Positions 2,706-25,356 of a DNA stretch of 36,316 bases are shown here, one piece after another (within the stretch, counting starts at the first letter, position 1; each line of letters starts with the position of its first letter). The stretch is from Clostridia bacterium (GTDB lineage: Bacteria; Bacillota; Clostridia; Christensenellales; Aristaeellaceae). Position numbers and translations under genes: made by a program. The stretch lies in contig JAFXZO010000076.1 in the NCBI GenBank assembly GCA_017541205.1, positions 1-36,316 on the forward strand, given 5' to 3'. Under the pieces are notes generated by a model. That model was not told the DNA's origin and searched no databases. It saw nothing but the letters and a program-made list of their open reading frames with translations.

Positions 2706-2746
2706 GCATTCCTTTCTTGTTCCGCCTTCGCCCGGATGATCTCAGC

Positions 2747-2779
2747 AAAAGCCCGCTCCGCGTGCTTGCGAAGCGGGCT
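2747..2779 (-). terminator. Attenuator terminator in metN leader
   Basis: The minus strand has a 12-bp stem (2768-2779 with 2750-2761, one G.U pair), a 6-nt loop and a T4 tract, about 40 nt upstream of the metN start and about 20 nt after the leader ORF stop. Its position between promoter and first gene makes it an attenuator rather than an end-of-operon terminator. Seven bases of its 5' arm (AGCCCGC) can also pair with GCGGGCT at 2831-2837 inside the leader ORF, giving a possible antiterminator. Confidence 0.75.
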
Positions 2780-2798
2780 CAACGGACGAAAACGCACA

Positions 2799-15297: not shown

Positions 15298-16047
15298 TCA
15301 GTGCGCGGTCAAGGACGAAAGGAAATCCTTCGCGCGCTGAGACTTAGGATGACCGAAGAAGGCTTCGGGCGTGTTTTCTTCCACGATGCAGCCGCCGTCC
15401 ATGAAAACCACCCGGTCTGCCACCTTCCGGGCGAAATTCATTTCGTGGGTGACGATCAGCATGGTCATGCCGTCCTTGGCCAATTCCGCCATCACGTTCA
15501 ATACCTCGCCGATCATTTCCGGGTCCAGGGCGCTGGTGGGCTCGTCAAACAGCATGGCCTTGGGGTGCATGGCCAGGGCCCTGGCGATAGCGGCCCGCTG
15601 CTGCTGGCCGCCGGAAAGCTGGGCGGGCACTTTATTCGCCTGGTCGGCTACACCCACCCGTTCCAAGAGGCGCATGGCTTCCTGCCGCGCTTCTTTTTTG
15701 CTGGTTTTCAGCACGTCGCAGGGGGCGATGGTCAGGTTGTCCAGGACGGTGCGGTGGGCGAACAGGTTGAAGGATTGGAACACCATGCCGATCCTGGCGC
15801 GCATCTCCGCCAGCTTTCTTCCCTCCCGGGGAAGGGGCTCGCCCTCAAAGAGGATTTCGCCGGAATCAATGGTTTCCAGACGGTTGACGGCCCGGCAGAG
15901 GGTGGATTTGCCGGAGCCGGAAGGCCCGATGATGACCACCACTTCGCCCTTCTTCACCGTCAGGGAAATATCGTTCAGCACGTGCAGATCACCGAAGTGC
16001 TTGTGAACGTGCTTAAGTTCGATGACAGGCCGATCATTTTCCGTCAT
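15298..16047 (-). CDS. Polar amino-acid ABC transporter ATP-binding protein
   Basis: The 249-residue ATPase belongs to the GlnQ/ArtP/TcyC group that powers uptake of polar amino acids. Motifs are Walker [10 protein letters not shown] (41-49), Q-loop [10 protein letters not shown], signature LSGGQQQR, Walker [13 protein letters not shown] and switch His in [11 protein letters not shown] chose ATG 16047 because AAGGAG lies 6 nt upstream and the protein then has normal length. The start overlaps the end of the permease gene by four bases. It is the last gene of the binding protein-permease-permease-ATPase operon. Confidence 0.93.
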
Positions 16048-16877
16048 GCCGCGCTCCTTTCTGCCGCGCCCGCCCGGTTCATGCGCCGGGCCAGGCGGTC
16101 GGACAGCTTGTTCAAAAGATAATTGATGAGAATATAGATCACCGCCACCACCAGATAAATGGACAGCAGCGCGTCGTAATTGGAAATCAGCACCTTGGCG
16201 TTCTGCATCAAGTCCGCGCAGGAAACGATGGAGGCGAAGGTGGTGTCCTTGAGCACGATCACCAATTCGGCGATCAGGGAGGGGATGACAAAACGGATGG
16301 CCTGAGGGAAAATGATCCGATAAAACAGCCGTGTTTCCCGGTAACCCAGGGACAGGGCCGCTTCCCGCTGGCCCTTGGGCACGGCGTTGACGCCGCCCCG
16401 CAGGGCTTCCGCCACCACGCCGCAGGCGGAAATGGCGCAGGGCAGGGTGATTTTCCAAAAAGCGCTGAGCTTCCAGCCGGTCTGCGGCACCACTAAGAAA
16501 AAGAAATAGATGAACAGCAGCGTGGGCACGCCCCGGGTAAACTCGATGATCCCCGTGCTGGCCCAGCGCAGCAGCCGGTTCTTTTGCAGCCTGCCCCGCA
16601 TGAGCAGAAAGCCCAAGGCGAAGGAAATGGCGGAGCCGGTGATTGCCGCCTCCACGGTAGTCAGCAGGCCCTCGCCCAAAAAGCGCCAGGTGGTGAGCTT
16701 GCCAAAGAACGCCCAGTAGCGTTCACCGAGCTGCCCCGTCACATAAAACTGCCGGACGACGATGAACAGCAGGGCGGCCAGGAGCAGCAGCGCCCCCGCC
16801 GTAGCCCAGGCGATGCGCCTGCGGGCCTTCGGCCCCGGCGCTTCATAGAGGATATCCCGAATGGAACCCGTTTTCAT
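16044..16877 (-). CDS. Amino-acid ABC transporter permease (second)
   Basis: The 277-residue membrane subunit is of the HisM/GlnP type, with a charged N-terminus (1-20), a first helix at about 24-44, a further stretch to about 65, and then the transport domain. The EAA coupling loop is [23 protein letters not shown] (about 171-193). ATG 16877 overlaps the first permease stop as ATGA. The two unlike permeases (277 and 219 residues) probably form a heterodimer, as in HisQM. Confidence 0.92.
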
Positions 16878-17533
16878 CGCAGTATCCTCACTTTCCTGTC
16901 GATCCAGCTTCCCGCCGCGCCGATCAAAAGCCCGGTCAGGCAGTACAGGGCGGCGGAAATGGCAAAGGCCATCACGCCCCCCGCGCTGCGGGTGTTGATG
17001 TAGGATACGATGCCCGTCAGCTCCATGGGCCGAAGGGGCACCTGGGAGCCCAGGGAGGTGGTGAGCATGGTGGCGACCATGAGGTTGGTCAGGGGCAGCA
17101 CGGCGGAACGCAGGGATTGGGGGATCACCACGCGCCGGATGAGCTGGAAAAAGGTCATGCCCAGGGCCCGCGCCGCTTCGATCTGGCCCGGATGGATGGT
17201 GTTCATCCCGCTCATCAGATGCTCCGAGCAGAAGGCGGAGGGGATCAGCACCGTGGCGATGAGCACGCATACGTCATAGGGGAACGTGATTTTCAGGTAC
17301 GGCAGGGCGTAGACGAGCAGGATCAAAAGCGCCGCCCCCGGGATGTTGCGGAAGATCTGCACGTAAAAATCCCCGAAAAAACGAAGCGGCTTGATCGGAG
17401 ACACCCGAAGCACCGTGATCACGATACCGATCACAAACGCCCCGAGAAACGAAAAAAACGTCAGCCTCCAGGTGGTGAAAAGCGCCTGGAGGTAACGGTC
17501 GCCATATTGATTGAGAAGCTGTGAAACAGTCAT
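16874..17533 (-). CDS. Amino-acid ABC transporter permease (first)
   Basis: The 219-residue permease, starting MTVSQLLNQYGDRYLQAL, is of standard HisQ/GlnP length. The EAA loop is IEAARALGMTFFQLIRRVVIPQ. ATG 17533 follows GGGAGG by six bases, and that site comes just after a terminator hairpin, so its expression depends on readthrough from the binding-protein gene. The pairing with a second permease gene by ATGA overlap indicates equal translation of the two. Confidence 0.92.
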   Translation of the reverse strand: MTVSQLLNQYGDRYLQALFTTWRLTFFSFLGAFVIGIVITVLRVSPIKPLRFFGDFYVQIFRNIPGAALLILLVYALPYLKITFPYDVCVLIATVLIPSAFCSEHLMSGMNTIHPGQIEAARALGMTFFQLIRRVVIPQSLRSAVLPLTNLMVATMLTTSLGSQVPLRPMELTGIVSYINTRSAGGVMAFAISAALYCLTGLLIGAAGSWIDRKVRILR

Positions 17534-17547
17534 GGGCTGCCTCCCGG

Positions 17548-17583
17548 AAAAGGGCCTCAAGGCGAAATTGTCTTGAGGCCCTT
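17548..17583 (-). terminator. Intercistronic terminator between binding protein and permease
   Basis: The minus strand has a perfect 12-bp stem (17572-17583 with 17550-17561), a 10-nt loop and a T4 tract, ending just upstream of the permease ribosome site. Such partial terminators give more binding protein than membrane subunits. Confidence 0.82.
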
Positions 17584-17798: not shown

Positions 17799-18710
17799 TT
17801 ATTCGGCGATGGCCGGGGCGGCGGGGGCGGTGTCAATGCCGGTGCGGTCGCCCAGGCTGATCTGCCACAGCTGGGCCCACAGGCCGCTCTCCTCGATGGC
17901 CTTGAGGAAGTCGTTGACGAAGGCCACGCCGTCGGAATCCTTGGGCAGGCCGATGCCGTAGGGGTCTTCGGGGCCGAACACGTCGCCCGCCACGGCATAC
18001 GTGCCGGGATTCTTCACGATGGAGTTGAGGATCAGGGTGTAGTCGGTCACATAGGCGTCGGCGCGGCCCAGCTCCACAGCGGTGCGGGCCTGGATGTCGT
18101 CCTCAAATTCCTGCACGATGGCGTCGGGCGCGAACTGGGTCAGGATGCTGGGGCCGGTGGAGCCCGCCTGGGTCGCCACGATCTTGTCCGCCAGGCCGTC
18201 AATGCCGGTGATCTCGGTGTTGCCGTACTTGACTAACACCGCATACTGGGAGGTGTAGTAGGGGCCGGCGAAGGAAATCACTTCCTGCCGGGAGGGGGTG
18301 ATGGAATAGGTGGCGAACACAGCGTCCACCTGGCCGCCGGTCAGCACGGATTCGCGGGTGCTGGAAGTCACCTGGGTCAATTCAAATTTGGTTTCGTCGC
18401 CCAGGATGTAGCGGGCCAGCAGCTGATACAGTCCGGCGTCAAAACCCCGGATGCCGTTGTCGGTTTCATCCAGCTGGCTGAACAGGAAGGAGGTGCGGGT
18501 GCCGCCCACCCGGAGGATACCGGCTTCCTTCACGGCAGTGGCCCATGTGCTGGCGGCGATCGCTTCATCGCTGGCAACGGGGCCGGAGGCCAGGAGCGCG
18601 TCAAAGGCCGCCTTATCGATGGCCGTGGGCTGCGCTTCTTCCGCAAAAGCGGGGGCAAATGCGGCGAGGGACAGGATCAGCGCGAAAAATACGGCGATGA
18701 TTTTCTTCAT
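17799..18710 (-). CDS. Polar amino-acid (probably cystine) ABC substrate-binding protein
   Basis: The 303-residue secreted protein has a signal peptide (MKKIIAVFFALILSLAAF, cleavage near AFA-EE) and a bilobed SBP_bac_3 fold (about 65-300). Family features are GFDAGLYQLLARYILG, VDAVFATYSITPSRQEVISFAGPYY and the ADAYVTDYTLIL hinge region. There is no Cys at the cleavage site, hence no lipobox. It heads an operon of two permeases and an ATPase, and its leader encodes a Cys-Cys peptide; I infer cystine or a related sulfur amino acid as ligand, which the fold alone would not show. Confidence 0.88.
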   Translation of the reverse strand: MKKIIAVFFALILSLAAFAPAFAEEAQPTAIDKAAFDALLASGPVASDEAIAASTWATAVKEAGILRVGGTRTSFLFSQLDETDNGIRGFDAGLYQLLARYILGDETKFELTQVTSSTRESVLTGGQVDAVFATYSITPSRQEVISFAGPYYTSQYAVLVKYGNTEITGIDGLADKIVATQAGSTGPSILTQFAPDAIVQEFEDDIQARTAVELGRADAYVTDYTLILNSIVKNPGTYAVAGDVFGPEDPYGIGLPKDSDGVAFVNDFLKAIEESGLWAQLWQISLGDRTGIDTAPAAPAIAE

Positions 18711-18916: not shown

Positions 18917-20203
18917 TTATGCCCGGATGGCCGCAAAGCCGTTTTCCAGATCGGCGATGATATCGTCGATGTGCTCCGTGCCGATGGACAGGCGGATGGT
19001 GTTGGGGCGAATGCCCTGATCCAATAATTCTTCTTCGCTCAGCTGGGAATGGGTGGTGGAGGCCGGATGGATCACCAGGCTCTTTACGTCCGCCACGTTG
19101 GCCAGCAGGGAGAAGATTTGAAGCGCGTCGATGAACGCCCAGGCTTCCGTCTGCCCGCCCTTGATTTCAAACGTGAAAATGGACGCGCCGCCATTGGGGA
19201 AATAGCGCTCGTACAGCGCGCGGTCGGGATGGTCCGGCAGGGAGGGATGGTTGACCTTTTCGACCAGGGGATGGTTTTTCAGGTATTCCACCACCTTCTT
19301 CGTGTTCTCCGCGTGCCGGTCCAGGCGGAGGGAGAGGGTTTCCACCCCCTGCAAAAGCAGGAAAGCGTTGAAGGGGGAGATGGACGCGCCGGTGTCCCGC
19401 AGCAGGATGGCGCGAATGTAGGTGACGAAGGCCGCTGGGCCCACCACATCGTAGAAGGACACGCCGTGATAGCTGGGGTTCGGCGCGGCGATGTTCGGGT
19501 ATTTTCCGCTGGCCTTCCAGTCGAATTTGCCGGCTTCCACGATGATGCCGCCCAGGGTGGTGCCGTGGCCGCCCAGGAACTTGGTGGCGGAGTGCACCAC
19601 GATATCGGCCCCGTGCTCGATGGGGCGGATCCAGTAGGGGGTGCCGAAGGTGTTGTCGATCACCAGCGGCAGGCCGTGCTTGTGGGCGATTTCCGCGATG
19701 GCGTCGATATCCGGGATGTCGCTGTTGGGGTTGCCCAAGGTTTCCAGGTAGATGGCCCGGGTGTTTTCTTTGATGGCGCTTTCCACTTCTTTCAGGTTAT
19801 GGGCGTCCACAAAGGTGGTTGTCACGCCGTACTGGGGCAGGGTATGCGAAAGCAGGTTGAAGCTGCCGCCATAGATGGTCTTCTGCGCCACGATGTGCCC
19901 GCCATTGGCGGCCAGCGCTTCGATGGTGTAGGTGATGGCCGCCGCGCCGGAAGCCACCGCCAGGGCCGCGCTGCCGCCCTCCAAAGCGGCCACCCGCTTT
20001 TCCAGCACGTCCTGGGTGGAATTGGTGAGCCTGCCGTAAATGTTGCCCGCGTCCGCCAGGCCGAAGCGGTCAGCGGCGTGCCGGCTGTTGTGGAACACAT
20101 AGGAAGTGGTCTGATAAATCGGCACCGCGCGGGCGTCGGTGGCGGGGTCGGCCTGTTCCTGGCCTACGTGAAGCTGCAGGGTTTCAAATTTATAGTTACT
20201 CAT
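18917..20203 (-). CDS. metY: O-acetylhomoserine sulfhydrylase / aminocarboxypropyltransferase
   Basis: This 428-residue cytosolic enzyme of the Cys/Met-metabolism PLP family makes homocysteine from O-acetylhomoserine and sulfide. It matches the MetY branch: start [38 protein letters not shown], the phosphate and ring contacts in [21 protein letters not shown] and [10 protein letters not shown], and the PLP lysine in [17 protein letters not shown] (about residue 209). The insertion of the long form typical of MetY is present. AAAGGAG precedes ATG 20203. It is controlled by its own promoter, operator-like palindrome and peptide attenuator, and lies beside the sulfur amino-acid transporter. Confidence 0.94.
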
Positions 20204-20256: not shown

Positions 20257-20288
20257 AAAAAACCGGGGGCTGTTTTTCAAGCTCCCGG
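20257..20288 (-). terminator. metY leader attenuator terminator
   Basis: The minus strand pairs CCGGGAGCT (20280-20288) with AGCCCCCGG (20263-20271), eight pairs and one A.C mismatch, loop 8 nt, followed by T6. Its 5' arm, extended to GCCCGGGAG (20282-20290), is perfectly complementary over 9 nt to CTCCCGGGC at 20379-20387 in the leader ORF, the antiterminator partner. Confidence 0.8.
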
Positions 20289-20314
20289 GCACATGGCAGA
20301 AAGAAGAAGGAGGA

Positions 20315-20443
20315 TCAATCGTTATCCTTCATCCGAAGGCGCGTGGATAAACAGCCGAACGCCCCTGCCACGGAACCTGCCCGGGAGAAAAGCATTCGAC
20401 AGCACATGATGCTCTGCTGAAAACGAATCCTGGTTTCGGACAT
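20315..20443 (-). CDS. Cys-Cys leader peptide upstream of metY
   Basis: This 42-codon ORF begins 8 nt after AAAGGAGG and ends 27 nt before the terminator stem. Its tandem Cys codons are at positions 14 and 15 (SIMCCRML), with one more Cys at 31. The antiterminator segment begins 11 nt after the second Cys codon, just beyond the expected edge of a ribosome waiting for Cys-tRNA at codon 14. This spacing fits textbook attenuation: stalling leaves the antiterminator free and metY is transcribed; smooth translation to the stop lets the terminator form. Confidence 0.7.
   Translation of the reverse strand: MSETRIRFQQSIMCCRMLFSRAGSVAGAFGCLSTRLRMKDND

Positions 20444-21138: not shown

Positions 21139-25356
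<4,218 letters not shown>

Follow-up and report, generated by a model that had tools for sequence, protein, structure and literature searches.

Transcription of the metY gene in the window (the whole stretch of DNA that was analyzed, 36,316 nucleotides) is very probably controlled by ribosome-mediated attenuation, with the supply of charged Cys-tRNA as the signal. The original prediction, made from the letters of the window, had proposed this reading, and it is now supported by relatives that retain the Cys codons and by compensatory changes in the paired arms. The positions of the features are given in Table 1.

A rereading of the minus strand located the 42-codon leader open reading frame (ORF), its Shine-Dalgarno (SD) sequence and the tandem Cys codons at codons 14 and 15 where they had been placed. 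The ORF is short and translatable, and it has a ribosome binding site. The 11 nt predicted to separate the second Cys codon from the antiterminator segment were also found; the start of that codon is 14 nt before the P1 helix. A stem followed by a T-run lies after the leader stop codon, as had been claimed. This terminator is absent from the list of a consensus scanner run on the window, and its stem carries a mismatch. CTCCCGGGC (20387-20379) is indeed the exact complement of GCCCGGGAG (20290-20282), but the 9-nt complement proposed initially was too small. It is a perfect helix of 10 bp, followed beyond a 5-nt bulge by a helix of 8 bp. The antiterminator consists of these two helices, P1a and P1b, which enclose hairpins P2 and P3. 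Terminator and antiterminator are mutually exclusive, since they have the strand 20291-20282 in common. Strand 1 (20400-20392) can pair with strand 2 (20362-20354); this pairing, referred to as 1:2, would add a third part, the anti-antiterminator, and give the leader the layout of a classical three-part switch. A perfect helix of at least 10 bp whose arms lie 40 nt or more from each other was found in 1 of 300 dinucleotide shuffles, and the folding energy of the whole leader was only mildly below that of shuffles (z, -1.86; 11 of 200 shuffles were as good). The main evidence against chance is conservation.

Table 1. Features of the metY leader and of the genes downstream, in window coordinates
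Feature	Position	Strand	Basis
Palindrome ACCTATTGACACAGTAGGT over the -35 box, putative Rrf2-type operator	20508-20490	-	sequence and relatives
Sigma-70-like promoter, TTGACA-17-TATCGT with TG	20503-20475	-	promoter inspection
Shine-Dalgarno sequence AAAGGAGG of the leader ORF	20459-20452	-	read in the sequence
Leader ORF MSETRIRFQQSIMCCRMLFSRAGSVAGAFGCLSTRLRMKDND, 42 codons	20443-20315	-	ORF list and homologous leaders in relatives
Control Cys codons TGC TGT, codons 14-15	20404-20399	-	sequence; conservation
Anti-antiterminator strand 1, GTCGAATGC / GUCGAAUGC, starting within the second Cys codon	20400-20392	-	
CGA ATG (Arg-Met), near-invariant among relatives	20398-20393	-	leader comparison
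Antiterminator P1a, 5' arm CTCCCGGGCA	20387-20378	-	covariation
Antiterminator P1b, 5' arm CGTGGCAG	20372-20365	-	covariation
Hairpin P2 within the antiterminator	20364-20337	-	fold and covariation
Anti-antiterminator strand 2, GCGTTCGGC / GCGUUCGGC, overlaps P2	20362-20354	-	
Hairpin P3 within the antiterminator, holds the stop codon	20334-20302 (approximate ends)	-	fold and covariation
Stop codon of the leader ORF, inside P3	20317-20315	-	
Antiterminator P1b, 3' arm CTGCCATG	20299-20292	-	covariation
Antiterminator P1a, 3' arm TGCCCGGGAG, common to the terminator 5' arm	20291-20282	-	covariation
Intrinsic terminator, stem 20288-20263 and T-run to 20257	20288-20257	-	sequence
metY, O-acetylhomoserine/O-acetylserine sulfhydrylase	18917..20203	-	TIGR01326, 620.7 bits (cut-off, 495.1)
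Amino-acid ABC transporter substrate-binding protein (SBP_bac_3)	17799..18710	-	
ABC permease	16874..17560	-	best model cystine permease, below its cut-off
Second ABC permease	16044..16877	-	profile
ABC ATPase	15298..16047	-	profile

The conservation of the leader was examined at several distances from the window. A search with the leader peptide over 60 genomes, including the window's own, gave some match at E ≤ 10 in 18 of them. The strong matches were metY leaders in eight further members of the genus; four genomes carry the leader a second time, before cysK. In an alignment of 13 genus leaders (A1; 9 metY and 4 cysK), 93.4% of the 377 antiterminator cells were paired, and 26 cells had double changes; shuffling gave 11.1 such cells, and sliding gave no more than 15. 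Compensatory changes were found between the very segments for which they had been proposed (20282-20290 and 20379-20387), G-C being replaced by A-U in 3 of the 13 genus leaders and in 8 of 73 leaders of the wider set. In three genus leaders, an Ala residue encoded in the P1 arm has become Thr and the far arm is altered to match; the pairing of P1 is therefore preserved at the expense of the peptide. The anti-antiterminator pairs in 99.1% of the cells in the genus, with no double changes found for it among the A1 leaders. RNAalifold, when run on the alignments, gave little structure or a mixture of both states, and the antiterminator pairs were therefore counted separately. In one genome (G014; L006, 2781-3240), about 200 extra bases separate the terminator from metY, and the leader is intact.

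Of 396 genomes of the order, 10 (the window included), from 6 of 142 genera, carried a match to a covariance model (R1) at E ≤ 0.1. Downstream of these leaders stood metY, genes for ABC permeases and for a MetN-like ATPase, and a close relative of the window's substrate-binding protein. One weak relative (L096; R1, E = 0.003) has GRM, with no Cys at that place. A model trained on the genus and run over 299 genomes of the phylum recovered at least the window and one more locus (L247, with four Cys codons and metY), a count that is a lower bound given the strict filters and the narrow model. A core DNA pattern scanned over named genomes matched at least 118 stretches, which were treated in two batches (L099-L178, 80 loci; L179-L216, 38 loci); R1 at E ≤ 0.01 matched 71 loci of the first batch and 34 of the second. 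Most hosts were Lachnospiraceae, Ruminococcaceae and other Clostridia from rumen and gut, and there were also Anaerovibrio and a Phascolarctobacterium metagenome-assembled genome (MAG). Cultured hosts include Anaerovibrio lipolyticus DSM 3074 (L103) and Lachnospiraceae bacterium AC2029 (L165). The pattern itself forces TGTCGAATG and part of P1, and forced letters were not counted as evidence. Among 75 wider matches, whose alignment was fitted to the structure model before counting, 185 cells had double changes, versus 66.1 after shuffling and at most 42 when slid, and such changes occurred in 24 of 29 pairs. Judged by these matches, the element is not private to metY and recurs before sulfur genes in many gut Clostridia.

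The leader ORF was followed in the same loci. For the first batch, 72 leaders were counted: the 80 loci had 81 pattern places; 8 loci that the covariance model did not match were regarded as chance and excluded, a place in L135 containing an N was omitted, and L166 (leader and metY, but no model match) was kept. For the second batch, 33 of the 38 places, those with the 3' arm, were counted. An SD sequence and a start codon were in frame with UGU-CGA-AUG in 70 of the 72 leaders, compared with 4 in each of the other frames, and in 28 of the 33, compared with 1 and 0. The start codon of the 72 leaders was mostly 12 to 15 codons ahead of the UGU. The codon just before this pattern-forced UGU was Cys in 53 of the 72 (TGT in 43, TGC in 10) and in 24 of the 33; the remaining leaders of the first batch had Met (6), Trp (5), Tyr (3) or other residues (5). 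The Cys codons are kept, as the prediction would have it, but the tandem is not essential, as Trp-Cys, Met-Cys, Tyr-Cys and other pairs occur. Total Cys richness was rejected as evidence, because the +1 frame (9.2%) was as rich in Cys as the reading frame (7.9%, not counting the forced codon); the other frame had 2.8%. Arg-Cys-stop ends 18 of 67 attenuator leaders, and RCC or RCR ends 4 more.

A second covariance model, R2, covers just the antiterminator and the terminator and leaves out the leader codons. Over 391 genomes of the class, it matched 27 genomes at E ≤ 0.01, the window included; at E ≤ 3.6e-6, there were 17 matches besides the window, in 12 genomes. In 16 of these 17 strong matches, an SD-led ORF runs through the arm, with CGA-AUG in frame and a Cys codon no more than three codons before it. 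Every one of the 17 has Cys beside the arm, 13 of them directly before CGA; in L227, L244 and L229, the Cys directly before CGA is lost and another stands one or two codons earlier. CGA-AUG lies 11 nt ahead of the first base of the model in 13 of the 17. Where the hairpins are surely present, a Cys codon is therefore present too, although it may shift by one or two codons. Relatives that keep the hairpins and lose the ORF or its Cys codons, named at the outset as a case that would speak against the attenuator, did not occur among the 17 strong matches. In the 17th match (L222, in G548), the ORF, MFKPEIKKQNYTICCRMR, ends just before the arm, with CGA-AUG read, and a ribosome would never traverse the antiterminator arm there. 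There were 18 weaker matches (E, 3.9e-5 to 0.0065), of which 16 were read: L270 (E = 3.3e-4) has a leader with four Cys codons and no CGA, and the 15 without a leader are taken as chance.

The genes downstream were examined next to their leaders. On the same strand of the window, metY is followed by the substrate-binding protein, two permeases and the ATPase, and a close relative of this substrate-binding protein (17799..18710) has its own copy of the switch in another locus (L098). Targets were read in 67 of the first 80 pattern loci. They comprised 39 metY-family genes, 2 cysK genes and 18 genes in a MetQ/NlpA or cystine-type substrate-binding cluster (2 of the 18 are more than 1 kb away and uncertain, and the clusters were named by profile for representatives only). 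There were also 2 PepT-like peptidases and 2 ABC permeases, together with single cases of an SDF-family symporter, a substrate-binding protein of the window type, a GST-like protein and a GNAT gene more than 1 kb away. According to the profiles, L100, L145 and L099 are MetQ/NlpA proteins or MetQ/NlpA-SBP_bac_3 fusions, and L144 is SBP_bac_3. The control codons match the amino acid of the regulated pathway, Cys codons standing before mostly sulfur genes. Other cysK genes of the group (L061-L077) have a different short leader that, by eye, often ends in ..RPGxCWRC-stop or RC-stop; in the window's own genome (G000, L077), MKLWRTFPLRLGHGWRCRG precedes cysK. Divergent from the metY leader, the plus strand of the window (21139-25356) holds an ORF of 1,405 amino acids that, by eye, combines a permease and an ATPase with repeated substrate-binding domains in one chain.

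A second layer of control probably acts at the promoter. A near-copy of CCTATTGACATAGTAGG (at least 14 of 17 positions) was found in 64 of 73 relatives, 97 to 162 nt before the Cys codon, and in none of the shuffles (one for each of the 73 leaders). At L050, an Rrf2-family gene is divergent from cysK. The palindrome over the -35 box suggests that a repressor of the Rrf2 family probably binds there. One attenuator class would be reused as a regulon device, for biosynthesis as well as import, under a common promoter palindrome. In the switch, many gut and rumen Clostridia, most of them uncultured, would have a Cys-tRNA sensor that can be tested, and it points to short leader peptides that searches of gene annotations would miss.

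The switch is proposed to work as follows. A ribosome begins translation of the 42-codon leader. When Cys-tRNA is scarce, it would wait at UGC UGU (20404-20399), covering strand 1 (20400-20392), with its front edge at about the start of the antiterminator arm (20387). The P1/P2/P3 antiterminator could then form and capture 20291-20282, which the terminator needs, and RNA polymerase would continue into metY; we infer that the gene is induced in this way by low cysteine. When Cys-tRNA is ample, the ribosome would traverse the P1 arm and P2, reach the stop codon in P3 and so undo the antiterminator, strands 1 and 2 would pair behind it, and the terminator (20288-20257) would form. A ribosome with a codon in its A site extends about 12 nt downstream, the standard toeprint distance. 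Given the 14-nt spacing, the edge of the waiting ribosome would therefore stop at the foot of P1, and this distance makes the footprint logic directly testable.

Folding models, together with this spacing, indicate that the control codons are placed such that a stalled ribosome would free the antiterminator. In minimum-energy folds of the window leader computed as snapshots along transcription, 1:2 pairing was absent with a ribosome at the Cys codons, P1 formed when its arm emerged, and no terminator appeared later. When the ribosome stood at the stop codon instead, 1:2 persisted and the terminator formed. The free RNA showed 1:2, then antiterminator P1 in four snapshots, and finally 1:2 with the terminator. 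A longer cut of the leader folded as antiterminator, so the outcome for free RNA is a close call. In a partition-function model of 92 leaders (101 candidates minus 10 lacking a parsed part, with the window restored), the antiterminator had a mean probability of 0.50 in free RNA, compared with 0.69 when Cys occupied the A site and 0.37 when the ribosome stood at the stop codon. The Cys stall exceeded the stop-codon position in 51 leaders and fell below it in 5; free RNA already favored the antiterminator in 46. With codons 2 to 11 after CGA in the A site, the value was at most 0.01, and once the ribosome was 13 or more codons past CGA, the antiterminator could re-form (mean, 0.30 to 0.61). Stalls further upstream also permitted it (0.55 to 0.76). 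These values place a sharp downstream boundary at the Cys-Arg-Met block; the upstream boundary is not sharp. For the anti-antiterminator, a perfect 7-bp partner, mostly at one distance, was present in 47 of 102 leaders, versus 3.9 in shuffles, and 55 had no perfect partner. Duplicates of at least four loci (L168/L005, L178/L004, L121/L053 and L152/L088) are contained in the 102- and 92-leader sets, and L135 was counted twice in the former.

The CGA-AUG next to the control codons is near-invariant at the nucleotide level and is conserved more than the attenuator model requires. Among 20 metY loci of a wider group, CGAATG occurred within 400 nt upstream in 16 (1.84 in shuffles). It lay inside an SD-led ORF in 14 of the 20, CGA being codon 12 to 24, mostly 16 or 17. 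Eight of those 14 leaders are without the attenuator, and three of the eight (L011, L013 and L022) are without Cys. A role of CGA-AUG as pairing partner alone was rejected, as it fits about half of the attenuator cases, and its conservation is only partly explained. Some metY leaders of sister species within the genus (L010, L012 and L013) have no such switch, and a tRNA-like element lies between a uORF ending in ..SRNRM and metY. In L010, this element (2714-2785, minus strand) is a tRNA-Met(CAT) by ARAGORN and matches the Rfam tRNA model; that of L013 (2905-2990, minus strand) matches the same model with a Cys-type GCA loop and is 84 to 89% identical over 47 to 58 nt to tRNA-Cys genes of three genomes (G015, G028 and G004). 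A copy of the element with 83% identity stands upstream of metY in L012.

These facts bear on what the leader senses. Instead of a mere shortage of tRNA, the switch could be set by arrest of the nascent peptide or by a pause specific to the codons at [C]CRM, perhaps in response to a sulfur metabolite. Of the 17 strong R2 matches, 16 have CGA-AUG in frame and the 17th has it read, and it is found in the eight metY leaders without the attenuator, including the three without Cys. Known arrest peptides typically conserve the residues ahead of the arrest site, whereas the residues before CCRM vary among the leaders. The Arg codon, where read, is always CGA; this favors a role of the RNA over one of the peptide, and base pairing accounts for about half of the cases. 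L270, with its four Cys codons, does without CGA. We therefore regard an arrest as distinctly unlikely. A broader version, in which [C]C-R-M is the active element, CGA-AUG near codon 16 acts as a pausing signal possibly beyond Clostridia (CRRMC in Streptomyces), and the control of metY was rewired in sister species to a leader with a tRNA-Cys-like element, is a tentative proposal and rather unlikely. A metabolite riboswitch with an incidental ORF would fit the conservation of primary sequence in the P1 arms from family to family (the 5' arm is partly forced by the pattern, the 3' arm is not). It would leave unexplained the SD-led ORF in the right frame (70/72 and 28/33) and the retained Cys codons, and Rfam gave no riboswitch match. 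The window had no Rfam match at the gathering cut-off, and the only matches at E ≤ 1 in eight attenuator loci were two microRNA (miRNA) matches that scored far short of their cut-offs and lay at a distance from the leaders. No Rfam family of riboswitch, T-box or S-box (SAM) fits, and this explanation is highly improbable.

The leader might instead sense methionine, or both sulfur amino acids, its block being read as Met-Cys-Cys-Arg-Met. If the ribosome stalled at the Met that lies two codons ahead of the last Cys, the antiterminator would likewise stay free, and Met stands two codons ahead of the forced UGU in 49 of the 72 leaders. MetQ/NlpA lipoproteins are among the targets, and a metNIQ leader of Streptomyces lividans that ends in RCMCRRMCAF is treated as methionine dependent in the available part of its description (PMC8079986). 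Against this, cysK is also a target, Cys is retained when its codon shifts, and in the model the antiterminator is largely blocked when the Met after CGA occupies the A site (mean, 0.25; next codon, 0.01). A shortage of methionine would, moreover, slow initiation too. Methionine sensing is thus unlikely, and the Cys-tRNA attenuator is the reading that we prefer. A metN leader was also sought in two actinobacterial genomes; many ABC ATPases were found, and the search was dropped.

This kind of attenuator is known; what appears to be new is the family, together with its targets and the reuse of the element as a regulon. The original prediction knew of no Cys-tRNA attenuator described for metY in Clostridia, and searches of the open-access literature showed none before metY or cysK in this class. 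Cys attenuators are known elsewhere, before cysS in Rhodobacterales and in mycobacteria. The Rhodobacterales motif, uORFC-8-2, was reportedly described by Brewer and others. According to the available part of its description, this uORF precedes cysS, has tandem Cys codons usually at positions 14-15 and an intrinsic terminator, and is proposed to act by ribosome-mediated attenuation (PMC8632094). These traits resemble those of the window leader. The same account places uORFC-8-2 in alphaproteobacteria, before cysS only, and gives it two stems, of which the first holds the Cys codons, a third being rare; the two elements were compared by description. The leader studied here precedes metY in the window and metY, cysK and transporter genes in relatives, all of it in Clostridia. 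In mycobacteria, as far as the cited passage goes, polycysteine uORFs likewise use Cys codons to control cysteine genes; they are leaderless and act by translation attenuation (Canestrari 2020, cited in PMC13236596). The window ORF, in contrast, has an SD sequence, a 5' leader and an intrinsic terminator. The metL leader of S. lividans metNIQ is, in the available part of the source, leaderless and without a clear intrinsic terminator (PMC8079986). Its ending, RCMCRRMCAF, resembles the R-M-C block, and its target is likewise a sulfur amino-acid transporter; it differs in the two traits just named and in its dependence on methionine according to its authors. The trp, his and leu attenuators of enterobacteria use a leader peptide, control codons and the logic of 1:2 pairing, antiterminator and terminator. 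The window switch shares this logic with them. It differs in using Cys, in its long antiterminator, which encloses two hairpins, and in the recurrence of one core sequence before several kinds of operon in several families.
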